Below are positions 4,593 to 19,267 of a stretch of 20,418 nucleotides of DNA, piece by piece. The DNA comes from a virus, in the IMG/VR virus record IMGVR_UViG_3300042565_001030, positions 1 through 20,418 of that record; one strand, written 5' to 3'. The notes below the pieces were generated by a model that worked only from the letters and a program-made list of their open reading frames with translations, made no database searches and was not told the DNA's origin. Positions within the stretch are counted from its first letter, which is position 1, and each line of letters begins with the position of its first letter. A program made the translations under genes and the position numbers.

Positions 4593-4608
4593 TTATCGTT
4601 AACGATAA
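4593..4608. repeat. 16-bp dispersed palindrome, copy 1 (perfect)
   Basis: TTATCGTTAACGATAA, 16/16, abutting the stop codon of the 203-aa virion gene in a short intergenic gap. Part of the seven-copy family. Confidence 0.9.
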
Positions 4609-7307: not shown

Positions 7308-8606
7308 CTATGCGTTCACAAGAGTGCGGCCGGATGGCGAGAACTTCGCCAGCTTTGCCGCCAGTCCTTCGGTGATAGTCACCCGGCGTTGCTGAGACTC
7401 GTTCACCTTCGGGGTGCTGTCCACACGCGAGGCACCCTTGAGCGATTTGATGTAGGAGTCTTTCTCCTTCACCATCTCTTGGAGTGCTTTGACCTGTGCC
7501 TGCAATTTCTTGTAGGCGCGACCTTGGTTGATGAGTCGGTTCATTTCGTCCACTGATGCTTCATCGTTGGACTGCTGGGTGGCTGAAAGTGCAATGGCGT
7601 CATCGCGGCTGGTGTCGAATGTGATGCCTTTCTCTTTCATGTAGGTTTGGATGTCTTCGGAGATGCTGATCTCGTTTTCGACTTCCTCTGCCTGCTTCTT
7701 GTAGGAGTCGCGCCATGTGTTGATGAACTGGCTGCGGGCTTCCTGTGCTTTGCGCTTGGCTTGGGCTTCGATATCCTGCTTGGTCTGGGTGTGGTTGATC
7801 AATGCCTGCGCGTGTTGGACTGTGCTGTCCAGATAGTCTTTGATGGCATCCGCGAACCGGACTTGCTTGAATGTTCCCAAGCTATTGGTGATCTCTTCAA
7901 ATGCCTCGTCCCTGTCGCGCATTGCCGCCGCACGATCCTCTTCGGTCGAGTGGTTGAATATGGATGCGTTTGCGTTGATCGCCCGCTGGAACATATTCAG
8001 CAGTGTATTATCGTTGCCGATAATCTGCCGGGCTGCGTTGTAGCTCTTTTGGATCGGTTCCACGAATTGCTTCTGGAAGTCGGGGTTCGTGGTCAGGTCA
8101 TGGAAGTCGAGCTTGCTGCGGAGTTCTTGGATTTCCTTTGATAGGTTTTGCTCCAATTCAACCTTCTCCTCGTTGGCTTTATTAAGCTGTGATTGGTAGT
8201 GGTTGGCTTCCGCCGTGGTTTCGCTGTTCTGGACGAGCTTCTCCAACTCCGCGATCTTGCCCTCGTATTTCGGAATCTCGTCCTTCTTGAACTTCTCCAA
8301 CTCCTCCTTGAGGCGGCGGTTCTCCTCAATCTGCTTCTGGACAAAGCCACCCTTTTTGACGTTCAAGTCCTTTTTGGGTTCCTCGGCGTTATCGTTAACG
8401 ATAATCTCTTCCGCAGGCTCTTCCTCTTGAACCTTGGGCATACCAAGCGTGGGATCGCCAACATTGGTTCCACTTGGCTTCCCGTCATCAGCCTGCTGTT
8501 TGCTGAACTTCTTGAGGAAGTCAGTCGTGTTTCCCTTGATGGGGATTTGTGGTTTGCTCTGGAGGTCTTTGATGATCTCCGCTGTTTCGTTGTTGGTGTC
8601 GCTCAT
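7308..8606 (-). CDS. Scaffold-like coiled-coil protein
   Basis: A 432-aa, charged, helix-rich protein between portal and capsid genes, the usual place of a capsid-assembly scaffold. It has an acidic/proline N-terminal region to about residue 75, a strong coiled coil at about 90-165 (KQIEENRRLKEELEKFKKDE...LEKLVQNS), more helices, and a basic C-terminal end (QQRRVTITEGLAAKLAKFS) of the kind scaffolds use to bind capsid protein. Two copies of the 16-bp palindrome lie inside the gene and encode IIVNDN (around residue 70) and IIGNDN (around residue 197), both outside clear coiled-coil cores. The start is coupled to the 81-aa gene by ATGA, and a terminator follows the stop. Confidence 0.78.
   Translation of the reverse strand: MSDTNNETAEIIKDLQSKPQIPIKGNTTDFLKKFSKQQADDGKPSGTNVGDPTLGMPKVQEEEPAEEIIVNDNAEEPKKDLNVKKGGFVQKQIEENRRLKEELEKFKKDEIPKYEGKIAELEKLVQNSETTAEANHYQSQLNKANEEKVELEQNLSKEIQELRSKLDFHDLTTNPDFQKQFVEPIQKSYNAARQIIGNDNTLLNMFQRAINANASIFNHSTEEDRAAAMRDRDEAFEEITNSLGTFKQVRFADAIKDYLDSTVQHAQALINHTQTKQDIEAQAKRKAQEARSQFINTWRDSYKKQAEEVENEISISEDIQTYMKEKGITFDTSRDDAIALSATQQSNDEASVDEMNRLINQGRAYKKLQAQVKALQEMVKEKDSYIKSLKGASRVDSTPKVNESQQRRVTITEGLAAKLAKFSPSGRTLVNA
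8008..8023. repeat. 16-bp dispersed palindrome, copy 2 (14/16)
   Basis: TTATCGTTGCCGATAA inside the scaffold gene; two central changes from the consensus. Confidence 0.6.
8389..8404. repeat. 16-bp dispersed palindrome, copy 3 (perfect)
   Basis: TTATCGTTAACGATAA, 16/16, inside the low-complexity acidic N-terminal region of the scaffold gene, where it encodes IVND(N). Confidence 0.9.
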
Positions 8607-11357: not shown

Positions 11358-11735
11358 TTATTTGTTGAAGAGGTTGTTTAGTGCTTGTCTGCGCTGCCTA
11401 CAAGAACTACAACCTTTGGCTCGACTTTCAAGGTTTGTTTTGAATACTTTGTCCACAGCCCTCGCGGCGGTGTGGATTGCAATCGCTACATGGTCGCCTG
11501 CCCCGCTCCAACACCTGTCTGCTGGCTGGCGTTCGCAAATCTGGTCTTCGACAATTTGTGCCAAGTCTACTGGCACATCAACTCCGTTTGACCTCATGTC
11601 TTTTGTGATATTCTCAATGAGTTTGTTCAAGGATTCCCCATAGACTGTGGCTGGGAAGTCATTTTTGAAGCGATGTATCGTGTAACGATACCACCAGCCG
11701 CCTACCGGAGCGCGTCGAGGTTCTTTAAGTTTCAT
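11358..11735 (-). CDS. Small CxxC protein, first gene of the structural operon
   Basis: A 125-aa protein beginning MKLKEPRRAPVGGWWYRY and ending in a CSSCRQRRQALNNLF motif (residues about 108-122). From memory, a CxxCxxRRxxLN tail recurs in small phage proteins of unknown function near packaging genes. Not assignable further. It is the first gene behind a good promoter (11751-11778) and is followed by portal after 2 bases. It also contains a D/C-rich central region (EDQICERQPADRCWSG). A role at the head/packaging stage is a contextual guess; a small terminase subunit is possible but unsupported. Confidence 0.62.
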   Translation of the reverse strand: MKLKEPRRAPVGGWWYRYTIHRFKNDFPATVYGESLNKLIENITKDMRSNGVDVPVDLAQIVEDQICERQPADRCWSGAGDHVAIAIHTAARAVDKVFKTNLESRAKGCSSCRQRRQALNNLFNK

Positions 11736-11750
11736 CTTGCCTTGCGCGGA

Positions 11751-11778
11751 AAGATAGGTTTTGATCTTTGCGTGTCAA
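11751..11778 (-). promoter_or_regulatory. Promoter of the minus-strand structural operon
   Basis: Minus strand: -35 TTGACA (11778-11773), 16-bp spacer, -10 TATCTT (11756-11751), about 16 bases before the first ATG (11735), with AAGG upstream of that start. It lies in the divergent gap between structural genes and terminase. Confidence 0.65.
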
Positions 11779-11813
11779 GAAAAATTGTTTCTCAAGGTAT
11801 TCGGAAATACGGG

Positions 11814-14579
11814 ATGGTTTTCCCGGACAACATGAACCCGCTGGAGATTGAGCTTTTCTGCTACGCAATCACCCGTGGAAGCTACGGCAAGACCTACTGC
11901 GTAAAGAACAATATTGAGCTTGGGGACTTCAAGTTGCTCAGTCCCTACGAACACTTCATCCAAGCGGTCCAGTATATGTGGCCCACCGATGTTGTCATCA
12001 AGAACAGGGGCTATACAAACACCCAATTGTTGAGGACGCTGGAGGAACTCTGCAACAATGACGATGTGGTTCTCGCTGGCGCGGCTTCGATGGGAAAGTC
12101 GTTTCCTGTTGGACTGTGGGTTTACTTGGACTGGTGTGCCGCCCCGCACTGCACATCCGCGTGGGTAGCGACTACTACACTTGGCGCGTCCGAGGACCGT
12201 ATCTGGGGTATCATCTCGAAACTCTGGAAGTGTGCGTCAAACCAGATCGGAAACCTTGTGGACTATCGGCATATGATTGTGTGGGGTGGTGCGTCCGGTG
12301 ATGATGAGAAGGACTACCGGAATGCGATCAAGGCTATTGCGTTCCCGCCGGGGTCCGAGGGCCAGAAGGCAATTGATACCACCCGTGGGCGCAAAAACGA
12401 TAGGATTCGCGTAGCCTTGGACGAGTTGCCCGAAATGGAGATGGGCGCGATCAATATCAGGCAAAACCTTTCTTCCAACGATGACAAGGTTTTCATTGGT
12501 ATCGGAAACCCGAGCGCGGGGGACAATCCCCATACAAGGTGGGCGATGCCAAAGGGGCATACCAACTTCGATTCGGTCAATGCCGACATGGACAAATGGG
12601 AGACGGAGACTGGGGTTTGTTTGTTCTACAATGGATGCAAGTCCCCGAACTTTGCCGCCCCGCCGGATGAGCCTTCACCATTCCCGTTCCTTATGGACCG
12701 CAGGAAGCAGGCGGACATCCTTAAAATGTCCTACGGGGACGAGAACTCCGTGGACTATGTTCGCAACGCCATTGGCTGGTGGCCCAAGTCCGGGTTTGCC
12801 CAAACAGTCCTTACTGCCGACGTCATCCGAAATGCCGATACTTTTACGGAGCCGATCTGGGACTACAATGAGATTGTTCGCATTGCGGGATTTGATACCG
12901 CTTTCACGGCCGGCGGGGACAGGTGTGTGCTGACGATCTGTAAACTTGGCTATGTCCGTGGCACTTCACAGAAGGTGATGTATCTGATGAATCAAGAAGT
13001 GATCCAGATTGCTGCTGGTGTAGCCGCAGAGTTTGATGTTCAAGTTGCAGCAAAGGTGGTTGACCTGTGCAGGAGGTATGAGGTGAAGCCGTCGAAGTTT
13101 GGCATGGATGTGAGTGGTGATGGCGGGCGGGTCGGGCAGGCTATCATGCGCGAATGGATGCGGCATGACAAGGATGGGTCTTCTATCGCCCTTATTTCCT
13201 CTATGGGTCGCCCGACTGATCGTATCGCCGCCGATGTGGACAAGCGTCCATGCAATGAGGTCTATGATCGCTTGATATCTGAATACTGGTATTCTGCATT
13301 CCATGGATTCAAGGCACGGGTGATTTATGGTGTGGAACCATCTGGCGAGCTTGGGCGGGAATTGTGCCTGCGCAGGTATCGCTTAAAGAATAAGAAGATT
13401 TCTGTAGAGACGAAGGATGACTACAAAGGCAGGACGGGATTCTCGCCCGATTGCTTTGTAGAAGGAACTTTAATTCTGACACCAAATGGAAATGTAAAGA
13501 TTGAAGACTTACGAGTCGGAGATGATGTTGTTACTCCATTTGGTATTACAAAAATTGCATTTATCCACGATGAAATTCATAACGAAATTTGTAAGGTTGA
13601 GTTTAATGATGGTCGAGTTCTTGAGGGAAAAGGAAAGCATAGGGTTTTTACTTGGGAAGATGGATGGGTTAGACTTGACAAGCTCTCCAGCGCATATACA
13701 ATAGAGTCTGAAGAAAGACTAATTGTATGGAACATTCTAAATTCATTATTCACAATAAATCCAAATATCGCATTCAAACATCTGGTAGATATTATCAAAA
13801 CGAAAACAGGAATGCGTCAGAGAGACTTTTACACAGAGTTATATGGGTTGAAAACAATGGAGACATTCCTGATGGTCTTGAAATCCATCACATCAATGGT
13901 GATTGGACTGATAACAGAATTGAAAATCTTACCCTTCTTACGAAGAAAGATCATATGCGGCTACACATGCAAGAGAGATTCAAAGACAAGCACTATTATG
14001 CAAAAAATCTGGAGTCTCTTAAGTTGGCTCAAGAAGCTGCAAAAAGGTGGCACTCTTCAGAAGAGGGAAGAAAGTGGCATAGTCAACATGCATACAATAG
14101 TATTCTCAAACGAGAAAAGCATGAGGGAAGTTGCAGGCATTGCGGGAAGCCCGTCATTACTCAAAACAAAAGCAAATCCAAGTATTGTAGTGGGGCGTGC
14201 TTTCAGTCGGCTAATAGGGAAAAATACAAAACAAAAACTTATAGATGCGTGGAATGCGGCAAAGATTTTAATGGCAACACTTATCGTAAGAGGATTTGCT
14301 GCTCCAAGCGTTGTGCGATCATCAAAAGAAACAAGGGTCGCGCGGGTATTAAACTTGGTCCTCGAAAACCAAAATGTGTATTATGCTAATGGAGTCTTGG
14401 TAGATAATTGCGCCGACTCATTCCTCTATAGCTTGGAAATGGCGCGGAGAAACGGACTCGTTTTTATCGGTAACGATAAACCTGTCCCTACTGATCGGTT
14501 CTGGGCGAGGCGCGAGAAGGAAGTCTCTGTCATGTCGGACGATGATTACTATATGTCCGATGATGATGGGGAGGATTGA
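11814..14579 (+). CDS. terL: Terminase large subunit, intein-containing precursor
   Basis: ATP-driven DNA-packaging motor and nuclease. The precursor is 921 aa; removing the 319-aa intein leaves 602 aa, a normal size. Walker A is GAASMGKS (about residues 89-96) and Walker B RVALDE (199-204). The RNase H-like nuclease acidic residues are in AGFDTAF (D361), FGMDVSGDGG (D432) and the split motif SPD|CADSF (D546). The intein starts at C547 immediately after SPD, and splicing would restore SPDCADSFLYSLEMARRNG. A longer reading frame from 11673 would overlap the divergent 125-aa gene, so I use the ATG at 11814, preceded by GGAAATACGGG. It is the only plus-strand gene in the packaging/structural half. 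A palindrome copy lies in the C-extein. Confidence 0.88.
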   Translation: MVFPDNMNPLEIELFCYAITRGSYGKTYCVKNNIELGDFKLLSPYEHFIQAVQYMWPTDVVIKNRGYTNTQLLRTLEELCNNDDVVLAGAASMGKSFPVGLWVYLDWCAAPHCTSAWVATTTLGASEDRIWGIISKLWKCASNQIGNLVDYRHMIVWGGASGDDEKDYRNAIKAIAFPPGSEGQKAIDTTRGRKNDRIRVALDELPEMEMGAINIRQNLSSNDDKVFIGIGNPSAGDNPHTRWAMPKGHTNFDSVNADMDKWETETGVCLFYNGCKSPNFAAPPDEPSPFPFLMDRRKQADILKMSYGDENSVDYVRNAIGWWPKSGFAQTVLTADVIRNADTFTEPIWDYNEIVRIAGFDTAFTAGGDRCVLTICKLGYVRGTSQKVMYLMNQEVIQIAAGVAAEFDVQVAAKVVDLCRRYEVKPSKFGMDVSGDGGRVGQAIMREWMRHDKDGSSIALISSMGRPTDRIAADVDKRPCNEVYDRLISEYWYSAFHGFKARVIYGVEPSGELGRELCLRRYRLKNKKISVETKDDYKGRTGFSPDCFVEGTLILTPNGNVKIEDLRVGDDVVTPFGITKIAFIHDEIHNEICKVEFNDGRVLEGKGKHRVFTWEDGWVRLDKLSSAYTIESEERLIVWNILNSLFTINPNIAFKHLVDIIKTKTGMRQRDFYTELYGLKTMETFLMVLKSITSMVIGLITELKILPFLRRKIICGYTCKRDSKTSTIMQKIWSLLSWLKKLQKGGTLQKREESGIVNMHTIVFSNEKSMREVAGIAGSPSLLKTKANPSIVVGRAFSRLIGKNTKQKLIDAWNAAKILMATLIVRGFAAPSVVRSSKETRVARVLNLVLENQNVYYANGVLVDNCADSFLYSLEMARRNGLVFIGNDKPVPTDRFWARREKEVSVMSDDDYYMSDDDGED
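13452..14408 (+). mobile_element. Intein in the terminase nuclease motif
   Basis: A 319-codon in-frame insertion. The N-terminal splicing block starts at C1 (CFVEGTLILTPNG, then VKIEDLRVGDDVVTPFG), block B is GKGKHRVFTW with its histidine, and the C-terminal blocks are VLNLVLENQNVYYANGVLVDN followed by Cys+1 of the extein. The last residue is Asn as required; the usual penultimate His is Asp. Splicing-domain parts total roughly 125 aa, mini-intein size; about 190 codons between them coincide with an HNH gene in another frame. The region is visibly AT-richer than the exteins, which points to recent acquisition. A protein-splicing element is strongly supported; splicing activity is inferred. 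Confidence 0.88.
13727..14389 (+). CDS. HNH homing endonuclease overprinted within the intein
   Basis: A 220-aa protein in a frame different from the terminase/intein frame. The HNH core is HRVIWVENNGDIPDG followed by LEIHHINGDWTDNRIENLTL and KDHMRLH (about residues 36-80), the classical phage HNH layout. Two zinc-finger-like cysteine clusters follow (CRHCGKP...KYCSGAC and CVECGKD...CCSKRC). It has its own ATG with a purine-rich AAGAAAG upstream and its own TAA, which overlaps the intein's C-terminal splicing block. It probably nicks or cuts intein-less terminase alleles to drive homing. The unusual point is the out-of-frame location; in known bifunctional inteins the nuclease is normally fused in frame. 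Confidence 0.82.
   Translation: MEHSKFIIHNKSKYRIQTSGRYYQNENRNASERLLHRVIWVENNGDIPDGLEIHHINGDWTDNRIENLTLLTKKDHMRLHMQERFKDKHYYAKNLESLKLAQEAAKRWHSSEEGRKWHSQHAYNSILKREKHEGSCRHCGKPVITQNKSKSKYCSGACFQSANREKYKTKTYRCVECGKDFNGNTYRKRICCSKRCAIIKRNKGRAGIKLGPRKPKCVLC
14464..14479. repeat. 16-bp dispersed palindrome, copy 4 (15/16)
   Basis: TTATCGGTAACGATAA in the terminase C-extein tail, encoding FIGNDK; one change at position 7. Confidence 0.75.
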
Positions 14580-14812: not shown

Positions 14813-15126
14813 TGGAATTCGTAGATTAGGTAGCCTTTTTCCCGCGCCCAGCCGGGGTTGTTGTGGCATCGATGGTGGCAGGGCCTGCATAAAGCCATGA
14901 AAGTATGCTTCTTTGTGGTGTTACTGCCACGGCCCCTTTTATGGTGTATGTCCGTTGCTTGCCCCCCACATATTTCGCAGCGGTAGTTTTTTTCTTCAAG
15001 GTATTCTTTCCTGACTTTGCCGTATTCTTCATTCAACTTCCTCCTGCGCTTGCTGACGGGGTTGAGCCTGCCTCCTCTTTTCTTGAATCCGGTTCTCGCT
15101 TTGAGCGGGGTTTTTCGTTTGAGCAT
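14776..15126 (-). CDS. HNH-type nuclease
   Basis: A 116-aa protein with a basic N-terminus (MLKRKTPLKARTGFKKRGGR) and an HNH core: CEIC (C50/C53), ATDIHHKRGRG with the catalytic His pair at 61-62, ALCRPCHHRCHNN (C80, C83, H84, H88) and GWAREKGYL. The two CxxC pairs would hold a structural zinc. Small phage nucleases of this type act in recombination, DNA processing or packaging; it is a stand-alone HNH, not obviously related to the intein nuclease. Its first 94 bases overlap the end of the XRE-type regulator gene in a different frame, and its end overlaps the next small gene. Confidence 0.75.
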   Translation of the reverse strand: MLKRKTPLKARTGFKKRGGRLNPVSKRRRKLNEEYGKVRKEYLEEKNYRCEICGGQATDIHHKRGRGSNTTKKHTFMALCRPCHHRCHNNPGWAREKGYLIYEFQCSNHSSLAKAS

Positions 15127-15368
15127 AGTTCGAGAATCTTGATGATGTGGTCGGCTTTGAGGACGCTGCGGCAGTTGGTTTCGACTTGGTTGATCAGGCT
15201 CCCTGTCACCCCGATCTTCTCCCCAAGCTGGCGGACAGTCAATCCGAGTTTGCTCCTCGTCTCCCGAAGCGACAAGCCGAACATCCTCCGCGCACTATTC
15301 TTGATTGCCTTGCTCTGCTCCATTGCGGAGATATAGTTGTGGTATGCCACTTCCAGCGGATGATTCAT
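15033..15368 (-). CDS. XRE-family helix-turn-helix regulator
   Basis: A 111-aa DNA-binding protein. The HTH domain is at about residues 35-80: LRETRSKLGLTVRQLGEKIG, then VTGSLINQVETN with the recognition helix, then ILEL. This is the lambda-repressor/XRE fold. The C-terminal tail (KPRSKREPDSRKEEAGS) is charged and lies in the part overlapping the HNH gene. Possible starts are TTG at 15401, ATG 15389, ATG 15368 and ATG 15320; I use 15368, uncertainly. It is divergent from the 128-aa gene, and the shared gap carries TTGAC-AA-GTCAA, a possible operator. It is also the only visible candidate regulator for the dispersed 16-bp palindrome, which is speculative. Confidence 0.72.
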   Translation of the reverse strand: MNHPLEVAYHNYISAMEQSKAIKNSARRMFGLSLRETRSKLGLTVRQLGEKIGVTGSLINQVETNCRSVLKADHIIKILELCSNEKPRSKREPDSRKEEAGSTPSASAGGS

Positions 15369-15394
15369 TTGGGTGGCAAGTCTATACATTATTG

Positions 15395-15441
15395 TTGACA
15401 AGTCAAGAGTATTTTTGTTATCGGAAGCGTTAATGGATAAC
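15395..15441. promoter_or_regulatory. Divergent control region with inverted repeats
   Basis: On the plus strand TTGACA (15395-15400) is followed by only weak -10 candidates 15-17 bases downstream. The same bases form TTGAC-AA-GTCAA (15395-15406), giving TTGACT on the minus strand, with TATAGA 14 bases away. A second inverted repeat GTTATC...GATAAC (15417-15422, 15436-15441) brackets the SD and start codon of the plus-strand gene. This would suit autoregulation by the adjacent XRE protein. Confidence 0.4.
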
Positions 15442-15819: not shown

Positions 15820-15835
15820 TTATCGTTAACGATAA
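15820..15835. repeat. 16-bp dispersed palindrome, copy 5 (perfect)
   Basis: TTATCGTTAACGATAA, 16/16, directly after the TGA of the 128-aa gene and 12 bases upstream of the -35 of the replication promoter, a position suited to control. Confidence 0.9.
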
Positions 15836-17252: not shown

Positions 17253-17268
17253 TTATCGTTACCGATAA
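17253..17268. repeat. 16-bp dispersed palindrome, copy 6 (15/16)
   Basis: TTATCGTTACCGATAA in the gap before the methyltransferase, ending one base before a possible ATG at 17270. One change at position 10. Confidence 0.78.
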
Positions 17269-17269
17269 A

Positions 17270-18034
17270 ATGAAAGGACAAGACAATGGCATGGTTAATC
17301 AGCAAAGCAATGATGAAGGAATGCGCGAACTCGCCCTCTTTGCGGGAGCGGGTGGCGGAATACTCGGCGGCAAACTCCTCGGATGGCGAACAGTCTGCGC
17401 CGTCGAATGGGACGCCTACGCAGCAAGCGTTCTTGTGGCAAGGCAAAACGATGGCTGCTTGGAAGCGTTTCCCGTCTGGGATGATGTGCAAACATTTGAC
17501 GGAAGACCTTGGAGAGGACTTGTTGATGTGGTATCGGGAGGATTTCCTTGCCAAGACATTAGTTCTGGAAACATTAACGGAAAGGGAATTGAAGGGAAGC
17601 GATCTGGAATGTGGAGCGAAATGGTGCGAATCATTTGCGACATTGAACCAGAGTGGGTCTTCGTGGAGAACTCACCAATGCTCCTTGTTCGTGGAATTGG
17701 AAGAGTCCTTCGTGATTTGGCCGGAAGCGGGTATGATGCAAGGTGGTGTGTGTTGGGAGCAAAAGATGTCGGCGCACCACACCAAAGAGAAAGAATTTGG
17801 ATCGTGGGCCACTCCACAAGCAAGCGACCAGCGTCGAGTAATAAGCACATTCGGAAGCACTTTGAGAAACCGAAAGAATATACCGGAGCTTGGAACGGAA
17901 AAAGGATGGATCAACCCGGAATTGTCGGAGTGGTTGATGGGGTGGCCAACCAAATGGACAGACTTAAAGCCGCTGGAAACGGACAAGTTCCAAGAGTGGC
18001 GGCAACTGCATGGAGAATTCTCGGAGGAATCTAA
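17270..18034 (+). CDS. C5 cytosine DNA methyltransferase
   Basis: A 254-aa protein transferring a methyl group from S-adenosylmethionine to cytosine C5. Motifs in order: I FAGAGGG (24-30), SAM-binding acidic residue in AVEWD, IV GGFPCQDIS with the catalytic Cys (residue 94), VI VENSP (132-136), VIII QRERIWIVG (172-180) and X GNGQVPRVAATAW near the C-terminus. It is short for the family, with a compact target-recognition region, as in many phage enzymes. Possible starts are 17270, 17291 and 17321 (MRELALF, the family's usual beginning); the start is uncertain. It probably protects phage DNA from restriction. Almost the whole gene is overlapped by another ORF. The stop TAA touches the helicase ATG. 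Confidence 0.88.
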   Translation: MKGQDNGMVNQQSNDEGMRELALFAGAGGGILGGKLLGWRTVCAVEWDAYAASVLVARQNDGCLEAFPVWDDVQTFDGRPWRGLVDVVSGGFPCQDISSGNINGKGIEGKRSGMWSEMVRIICDIEPEWVFVENSPMLLVRGIGRVLRDLAGSGYDARWCVLGAKDVGAPHQRERIWIVGHSTSKRPASSNKHIRKHFEKPKEYTGAWNGKRMDQPGIVGVVDGVANQMDRLKAAGNGQVPRVAATAWRILGGI

Positions 18035-18038
18035 ATGA
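17286..18038 (+). CDS. Overprinted ORF in the methyltransferase gene
   Basis: A 250-aa frame on the same strand as the methyltransferase but in a different phase. Evidence that it is real: SD AAAGGA (17273-17278) sits 7 bases before its ATG, better placed than for the methyltransferase starts; its stop overlaps the helicase ATG as ATGA; and it contains ECANSPSLRERVAEYSAAN, WPEAGMMQGGVCWEQ and EWLMGWPTKWTDLKPLETDK, which I recall from phage hypothetical proteins annotated beside or over such methylases. That memory cannot be checked here. The function is unknown. The alternative is a long spurious frame kept open by the composition and constraint of the methylase gene. Confidence 0.55.
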   Translation: MAWLISKAMMKECANSPSLRERVAEYSAANSSDGEQSAPSNGTPTQQAFLWQGKTMAAWKRFPSGMMCKHLTEDLGEDLLMWYREDFLAKTLVLETLTERELKGSDLECGAKWCESFATLNQSGSSWRTHQCSLFVELEESFVIWPEAGMMQGGVCWEQKMSAHHTKEKEFGSWATPQASDQRRVISTFGSTLRNRKNIPELGTEKGWINPELSEWLMGWPTKWTDLKPLETDKFQEWRQLHGEFSEESK

Positions 18039-19267
18039 AAAAAGTCCCTATCCGCAGCAACAGCGAGCAGGCTGCACTCAGCCTCCTCGTCCAAGATCCA
18101 GACATCTTAGCCAAACAGCACTGGGAAGCCTCGCTTTTCGCCATAAAAGCCCACCAGACGCTTTTCACCGCCATCAAGGCCTTCCATAGCCGAAACGGCA
18201 TCTGCGACGAATTTACGGCGATTTCGGAGCTTGAGAACATGGGGGAACTCGAAAGGATGGGCGGGCATACCGCCGTCCTCGACATCTTGAAGTGCATGAA
18301 CATCCCCGCAGGCAGGGTCGCCCAAGATGTGGCAAACGACTTCCGAAAGGAACTCTGGGAGGCCAAAGGCTACCGCGATCTCCTTGTCCAGATGGAGGAG
18401 ATGGAACCCGAGATTCGCCGTGGGCAGGCTGACCTCCGCAAATTATCGTTAACGATAGAATCGGTTTCCAACCATGACCACAAACCCAAGCGCACAAAGA
18501 AGGAAATGCTCACCCAGATCATTGACGAGATGGAGGGCAAGGCCAAGAAGGAGACTTTGCCTACGGGGTTGCTCAAACTGGACAGATGCCTCCAAGGCGG
18601 GATGCACAGGGGGGAGATGATGACTGTCGCCGCAGAGACTGGGGGAGGCAAATCCATCCTCCTCGTCCAAGCTGCCGTGTCCGCGCTCCTCGAAAACAGG
18701 CCCGTCCTCTTCTTCTCTCTTGAGATGGCTGGGGAGGATATCTACCGCCGAATGGCAGCGAACTTGGCCGGAGTCCCAATCCGCGAGATGGAGGACTACA
18801 AGGAAAAGCATGGGGCCGAACTGCCCAAGATCAGCCAAGCCCTGATGAAACTACACTCCATGCCAGTCGAGGTCGTTGACCACCTCCACGACATATCCGA
18901 CATAGAATCGGAGATCGCAAGGTTCTCCGGCGAAAACAGGACGGATGTGGTGGCTGTGGACTACCTGCAAATCATCTCCCTGCCGAACAGCGACAACAGG
19001 GAGAACGCGATCAGCGAGGCGGCAAGGAGGCTCAAGACCGCAGCCATGAAGCACAAAATTGTGATGTTTACGGCATCGCAATTGAACGACGAGGGCAGGC
19101 TCCGCGAGTCCCGCGCCATCGGGATGCACTCAGACCAAGTCGTCCACATCGAACACGGGAAGGACAAATCGCGGGTAGTTGTGAAGAAGAACCGCCGTGG
19201 ACCGAGGAACTATACCATTGATGTGGCCATGCGCGGGGAACTCTCGAAACTGGAGGAAGTATGGTAG
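18035..19267 (+). CDS. DnaB-family replicative helicase
   Basis: A 410-aa hexameric 5'-3' helicase. The N-terminal domain (about 1-110) is DnaB-N-like (SEQAALSLLVQDPDIL...). A linker at about 130-175 contains one palindrome copy. The RecA-like ATPase core follows: Walker A AAETGGGKS (199-207), FFSLEM (226-231), Walker B VVAVDYLQI (305-313), TASQLN (346-351) and the basic KKNRRGPR near 384-391. It is slightly shorter than bacterial DnaB (about 450-470 aa), normal for phages. A strong SD GGAGGA (18023-18028) lies 6 bases before the ATG, inside the end of the methyltransferase gene. It would work with the upstream initiator/loader. Confidence 0.92.
   Translation: MKKVPIRSNSEQAALSLLVQDPDILAKQHWEASLFAIKAHQTLFTAIKAFHSRNGICDEFTAISELENMGELERMGGHTAVLDILKCMNIPAGRVAQDVANDFRKELWEAKGYRDLLVQMEEMEPEIRRGQADLRKLSLTIESVSNHDHKPKRTKKEMLTQIIDEMEGKAKKETLPTGLLKLDRCLQGGMHRGEMMTVAAETGGGKSILLVQAAVSALLENRPVLFFSLEMAGEDIYRRMAANLAGVPIREMEDYKEKHGAELPKISQALMKLHSMPVEVVDHLHDISDIESEIARFSGENRTDVVAVDYLQIISLPNSDNRENAISEAARRLKTAAMKHKIVMFTASQLNDEGRLRESRAIGMHSDQVVHIEHGKDKSRVVVKKNRRGPRNYTIDVAMRGELSKLEEVW
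18443..18458. repeat. 16-bp dispersed palindrome, copy 7 (15/16)
   Basis: TTATCGTTAACGATAG inside the helicase gene at the interdomain linker (LSLTI); one change at the last base. Confidence 0.75.

Follow-up and report, generated by a model that had tools for sequence, protein, structure and literature searches.

C5 cytosine DNA methyltransferases made of two polypeptides are already known, and in one of them, M.EcoHK31I, the open reading frame of the β subunit lies within that of the α subunit, in another frame. In M.EcoHK31I (YGGCCR), the larger subunit carries motifs I-VIII and X, and motif IX is located on the second, smaller polypeptide (PMC3404938). M.AquI (CYCGRG) is also split: its variable region is divided between one polypeptide with motifs I-VIII and another with motifs IX-X (PMC3404938). 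Motif IX and the target-recognition domain make the small domain of C5 methyltransferases, and complementation between an N-terminal and a C-terminal half is known for other C5 methyltransferases (PMC3404938). Moreover, out-of-frame HNH insertions, described as the ShiLan domain, occur in phage methylases (PMC11855218). Here, we analysed a viral DNA of 20,418 nucleotides (IMG/VR record IMGVR_UViG_3300042565_001030), which will be hereafter referred to as the window, and in which a C5 methyltransferase frame, α, shares its DNA with a second open frame, β.

Two frames of the window locus

The two frames lie on the same strand and overlap over about 740 bases, β being in the +1 frame and α ending at 18034. 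The elements of the locus, in window coordinates, are as follows.

17253..17268, no strand: operator-like 16-bp palindrome TTATCGTTACCGATAA, immediately before the common α/β ribosome-binding site
17272..17277, + strand: Shine-Dalgarno sequence AAAGGA, by direct reading apparently common to the β ATG at 17286 and the α ATG at 17291
17286..18038, + strand: β, overprinted ORF in the +1 frame, 250 aa, intact; proposed target-recognition/motif IX subunit
17291..18034, + strand: α, predicted catalytic subunit of a C5 cytosine methyltransferase, 247 aa from ATG 17291 (17270 and 17321 are alternative starts, and the mechanical ORF begins at TTG 17051)
17339..17359, + strand: α motif I (FAGAGGG)
17540..17554, + strand: α motif IV with the catalytic Cys (GFPCQ), invariant in alignment A2
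17666..17674, + strand: α motif VI (ENS), alignment A2
17783..17800, + strand: α motif VIII (QRERIW), alignment A2
17913..17957, + strand: motif-IX-like segment of β, NPELSEWLMGWPTKW, near the β C-terminus
17936..17947, + strand: α DGVA codons GAT GGG GTG GCC, read as M-G-W-P in β; synonymously frozen
17960..17992, + strand: α motif X (RLKAAGNGQVP), overlapping the C-terminal helix of β

The α frame matches Pfam PF00145 with an E-value of 4.3e-32, over profile positions 2-182 of 324 only, and phrog_363 with an E-value of 7.2e-60. Motifs I-VIII and X are present in this frame, as seen in alignment A2 and in the Pfam match, and motif IX and the target-recognition domain are absent from the α chain in the window and its relatives, as judged by Pfam and the alignments. 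The first-pass annotation of this DNA had called the methyltransferase motif-complete, which it is not, and had overlooked the probable role of the second protein as the source of the missing motif. The AlphaFold model of α (pLDDT 80, pTM 0.77) matches M.HhaI in Foldseek over 174 columns (E=6.4e-14). Modelled alone, α corresponds to the large domain of M.HhaI with the motif X helix, and residues 188-231, where the small domain would sit, are modelled with low confidence.

The same annotation had reported β as an open frame of 250 aa, preceded by AAAGGA 7 nt upstream of ATG 17286, with a TGA stop that overlaps the start of a helicase gene as ATGA. These readings all hold, the DnaB-like helicase ATG being at 18035, and the +1 frame covers the region from motif I to the end of the methyltransferase. 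α probably starts at ATG 17291, using the ribosome-binding site of β, and not at 17270. The +1 open stretch in the window is 252 codons long, compared with a mean of 134 in synonymous shuffles of α (P = 0.010). On sequence evidence, the dual coding at this locus is real, and the evidence from the family is far stronger than that of the window shuffles alone.

Copies of the palindrome TTATCGTTAACGATAA are found at 4593-4608, 8389-8404, 15820-15835, 17253-17268 and 18443-18458, with a degenerate copy near 8008. These 5-6 copies are dispersed in the window, where 0 are expected by chance, and they resemble a set of operators or stoperators for a repressor. The window also has a gene for an HTH protein at 15033-15401 on the minus strand.

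Occurrence of the second frame and probable nature of its product

The dual-frame arrangement is kept in more than 100 related phage sequences, and all 18 IMG/VR loci found with β also have α in the other frame. The best 80 relatives were chosen by α alone, avoiding selection on β. A single +1 ORF covers at least 95% of the motif I-X region in 78 of the 79 loci with a recognisable α ORF, and 90% in the remaining one. In relatives, the overlap has a median length of 807 nt and a maximum of 1299 nt. Stops in the second frame among close relatives, which had been named at first pass as evidence against β, are thus nearly absent. The exceptions observed are one TAG in L002, one stop in L014, stops confined to the N-terminal part in L028, and an insertion or indel in L019 and L031. 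In L019 (2760-4200), the WLMGWP of β is the insertion site of an HNH-type endonuclease, which swaps the frames, and motif X comes after the β frame. In L031 (mycobacteriophage Ochi17, 1429-2188), an apparent indel splits α and β, and each of the two α pieces has its own annotation as a 'DNA methylase' (genes 73 and 74).

Classical bacterial C5 methyltransferases (controls L227-L240 and L216) have no comparable +1 ORF, and motif IX is in their methyltransferase frame wherever it was scored, which is in most of them. Homologues of β are also found over quite different C5 methyltransferase types in gammaproteobacterial genomes (L209-L221, L254, L259). The C5 methyltransferase of L217 (3-2003) has an intein-like segment at the catalytic PC motif (GSCP / CFPEGT ... 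VHNC / QPFS), and the β ORF is still present in the +1 frame. In most loci of more distant viral sets, motif IX is absent from the α frame and LMGFPxxW or LQGFPxGW stands at the end of the +1 ORF. In the methyltransferases L293-L298, α stops before motif X, and segments like motifs IX and X follow downstream in other frames; this layout is possibly frameshifted, inserted or further split. A search of 369 gammaproteobacterial genomes and a plasmid collection showed no stand-alone β, and the genome matches that were opened overlap a C5 methyltransferase. Whether β homologues always overlap a methylase had been raised as a check on the first reading, and at every locus inspected a C5 methyltransferase is in the other frame.

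β matches phrog_1008 ('DNA methyltransferase') with an E-value of 4.9e-18, and it is matched by no Pfam or NCBIfam model. Its C-terminal end is composed of NPELSEWLMGWPTKWTDLKPLETDKFQEW and a short tail, and M218, P221 and W224 are invariant across 70 sequences. The AlphaFold model of β alone (pLDDT 60, pTM 0.24) has no match in the PDB and weak matches only in BFVD, two of which are annotated as methyltransferase or methylase. Such a poor fold would be expected for a partner-dependent protein, yet it is not evidence for one.

Aligned to classical methyltransferases with hhalign, the window-type β lands exactly on motif IX, with a weak E-value of 0.67. With a divergent β set the E-value is 0.014, again at the motif IX position, and the window β profile against the single-chain methyltransferase L301 alone gave nothing meaningful. 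In the sister family L300/L221, β ends with VRRLLPSECETLQGFPKGWTV. L301 has VRRLTPLECEGIQGFPTNWTV in frame ahead of motif X, and this in-frame motif IX and the sister-family segment are 65% identical (E=5e-7). Furthermore, a second conserved block of the L221 β matches the C-terminal domain of the single-chain proteins L301 and L302. Judging by these alignments, the sister-family β plainly carries motif IX. For the window-type β, we infer through the family that it supplies this motif, because the direct support consists of its position and a weak profile score.

β could also be a real overprinted protein that is independent of the methyltransferase, with for example an anti-restriction or regulatory role, and that shares the locus by chance. 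The weak similarity of the window-type β to motif IX would fit such a protein, as would the lack of a matching solved structure. However, β was never seen without an overlying C5 methyltransferase, itself without an in-frame motif IX, and the motif is plain in the sister-family β; we regard an independent function as rather improbable.

The starts of the two frames lie side by side. An α-frame start is located 4 nt before the β ATG in 65 of 76 homologues, typically as ATGAATGA, and 5 nt after it in 9 of the 76, like in the window (17286 and 17291), and a Shine-Dalgarno-like sequence is found upstream of the starts in 63 of the 76. Since the α and β starts are 4-5 nt apart, one ribosome-binding site can serve both. 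The +1 relation between the frames is constant in all loci, which is also what could be expected if programmed ribosomal frameshifting joined them into one α-β fusion. However, β is conserved from a start codon beside that of α, upstream of motif I, and one shift would gain motif IX yet lose motif X, which is downstream in the α frame. We hold a fusion of this kind to be very improbable.

Selection on both frames

Selection was assessed in 21 overlap pairs, about 80-99% identical, in which substitutions were sorted by their effect in each frame and compared with a neutral expectation. Relative to this expectation, substitutions that are silent in both frames stand at 4.8-fold, those that alter both at 0.58-fold, and the α-silent/β-changing and β-silent/α-changing classes at 1.5-fold and 1.2-fold, respectively. 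The omega of β, from α-silent changes, is 0.32 (0.25-0.40), and 0.26 in pairs that are at least 90% identical, while the omega of α in the same 21 pairs is 0.25; these values are approximate because some loci recur across pair neighbourhoods and each substitution was scored by itself against a single background. For comparison, the +2 frame of α has an omega of 1.05, and 16 flanking ORFs taken in their +1 frame have an omega of 0.85. The pairs consist of relatives, and no relative close enough to the window was found for repeating the test there. In the mycobacteriophage branch, the omega of β is 0.63 and that of the control frame is 0.72, with very few changes.

The position of the substitutions within codons is also altered. 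In the overlaps, substitutions at α codon positions 1, 2 and 3 are in the ratio 38:19:44, compared with 21:18:61 in flanking genes (P ~1e-11), which is a move from α position 3 to position 1, the wobble position of β. In the DGVA segment, 93 out of 95 α genes use GGG for Gly, a codon that makes 18% of Gly codons elsewhere; Asp is GAT in 76 of 76, and the fourth codon is GCC in 87. Normal synonymous variation in the methyltransferase had been proposed as a sign against β; with GGG at this level, and with the omega of β at 0.32 where the controls are near 1, the synonymous sites are not free. By these substitution patterns, the β frame is under purifying selection in the family.

In 20 of 21 loci, the absence of stops from the β frame goes beyond what synonymous shuffles give. 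Control frames are likewise raised in shuffle similarity, with a mean z of 1.5-4.3, and shuffle similarity alone is insufficient for this reason. A passive shadow of α is excluded at the family level by the two-frame substitution classes, taken with the control frames and flanking genes. Least probable of all is an untranslated β frame whose openness and similarity are a by-product of methyltransferase coding: some similarity is passed on to every frame of a conserved gene, as the control z-scores show, but such a frame fits neither the low omega of β nor its freedom from stops beyond the shuffles, nor the codons frozen exactly at its MGWP, nor its own start and Shine-Dalgarno sequence. The first-pass annotation had left a choice between a long overprint and a false protein family derived from methylase genes, and the conservation of both frames, the omega of β and the constant overlap of its homologues with a methyltransferase settle this choice for the overprint.

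A proposed superimposed enzyme and its known counterparts

We read the locus, with a probability of about 0.8, as superimposed genes for the two polypeptides of a C5 cytosine DNA methyltransferase, which would form an active heterodimer. The sequence data that support this reading are the open and conserved frames under purifying selection, the partition of the motifs, the geometry of the starts, and motif IX in the sister family. α would be the large domain: it has the AdoMet site, the catalytic Cys and a motif X helix folded back against this domain. β, translated from the +1 frame, would supply motif IX and probably the target-recognition segments, and would correspond to the M.HhaI small domain. 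The single ribosome-binding site with two closely spaced start codons would lead to co-synthesis of the subunits, which would assemble into one active orphan methyltransferase with its own specificity, presumably shielding phage DNA from host restriction. No endonuclease partner gene was recognised beside α/β, and an anti-restriction role of this orphan enzyme is probable for this reason.

In each of 11 annotated phage records examined, one frame only is annotated, α in 8 and β in 3 (PP083311, MG592659 and PP079418), and sometimes under the name 'hypothetical protein'. Gene callers forbid long overlaps, and annotated phages would therefore carry half an enzyme. Recoded cloning of the annotated gene would destroy β; if our reading is right, the product would be a dead methylase, and activity or specificity assays of such phage genes would therefore mislead. 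In addition, over 700-1300 nt, each of the two conserved proteins, which probably cooperate, limits the codons available to the other. The chances are about even that a large share of viral C5 methyltransferases, in several distant lineages (FAGAGG/GNGQVP, FSGIGG/GNAVVP, FAGIGGW and the L221/L300 type), consists of heterodimers whose two subunits are dual-coded on the same DNA. If so, they would be among the largest classes of long same-strand overlaps outside small viruses, and the second subunit would be missing from most annotations. No paper describing β in phages was found in the literature searched, and, as far as this literature goes, the near-complete superposition of the genes, the common start region, the spread among phages and the dual purifying selection are new.

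Like β, the proteins of the ShiLan domain type are encoded out of frame in phage methylase genes; however, they are inserted homing endonucleases, whereas β covers the conserved coding sequence of the methylase itself. An intein-like Hint segment (PF13403, E=3.6e-8) is found elsewhere in the window, in a 968-aa ORF at 11673-14579 (+) whose sequence suggests the large subunit of a phage terminase. Nested inside it in a different frame, at 13727-14389 (+), is an ORF for a 220-aa HNH_3 endonuclease (E=1.5e-18), which resembles the out-of-frame HNH insertions (PMC11855218).

α has the same large-domain fold and catalytic motifs as M.HhaI and M.HaeIII, but in these single-chain enzymes the one chain also includes motif IX and the target-recognition domain, and α is without both. 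M.AquI is, like the proposed enzyme, a natural two-polypeptide C5 methyltransferase; here, in contrast, motif X remains on α and is not with motif IX on the second subunit, and the coding regions are superimposed.

The likeness to M.EcoHK31I, compared by motifs alone, is in the same division, with motifs I-VIII and X but not IX on α, and in a second polypeptide that comes from an alternative frame of the first. The placement of motif IX on this second polypeptide is clear in the sister family, from the 65% identity to an in-frame motif IX; for the window-type β, the position is right and the statistics are weak. Unlike M.EcoHK31I, the genes described here are phage-borne orphans, found across diverse phages, with no adjoining endonuclease gene recognised. 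Moreover, the two genes overlap along nearly their entire length, about 740 nt in the window and up to 1299 nt in relatives, and the start region is common to both.
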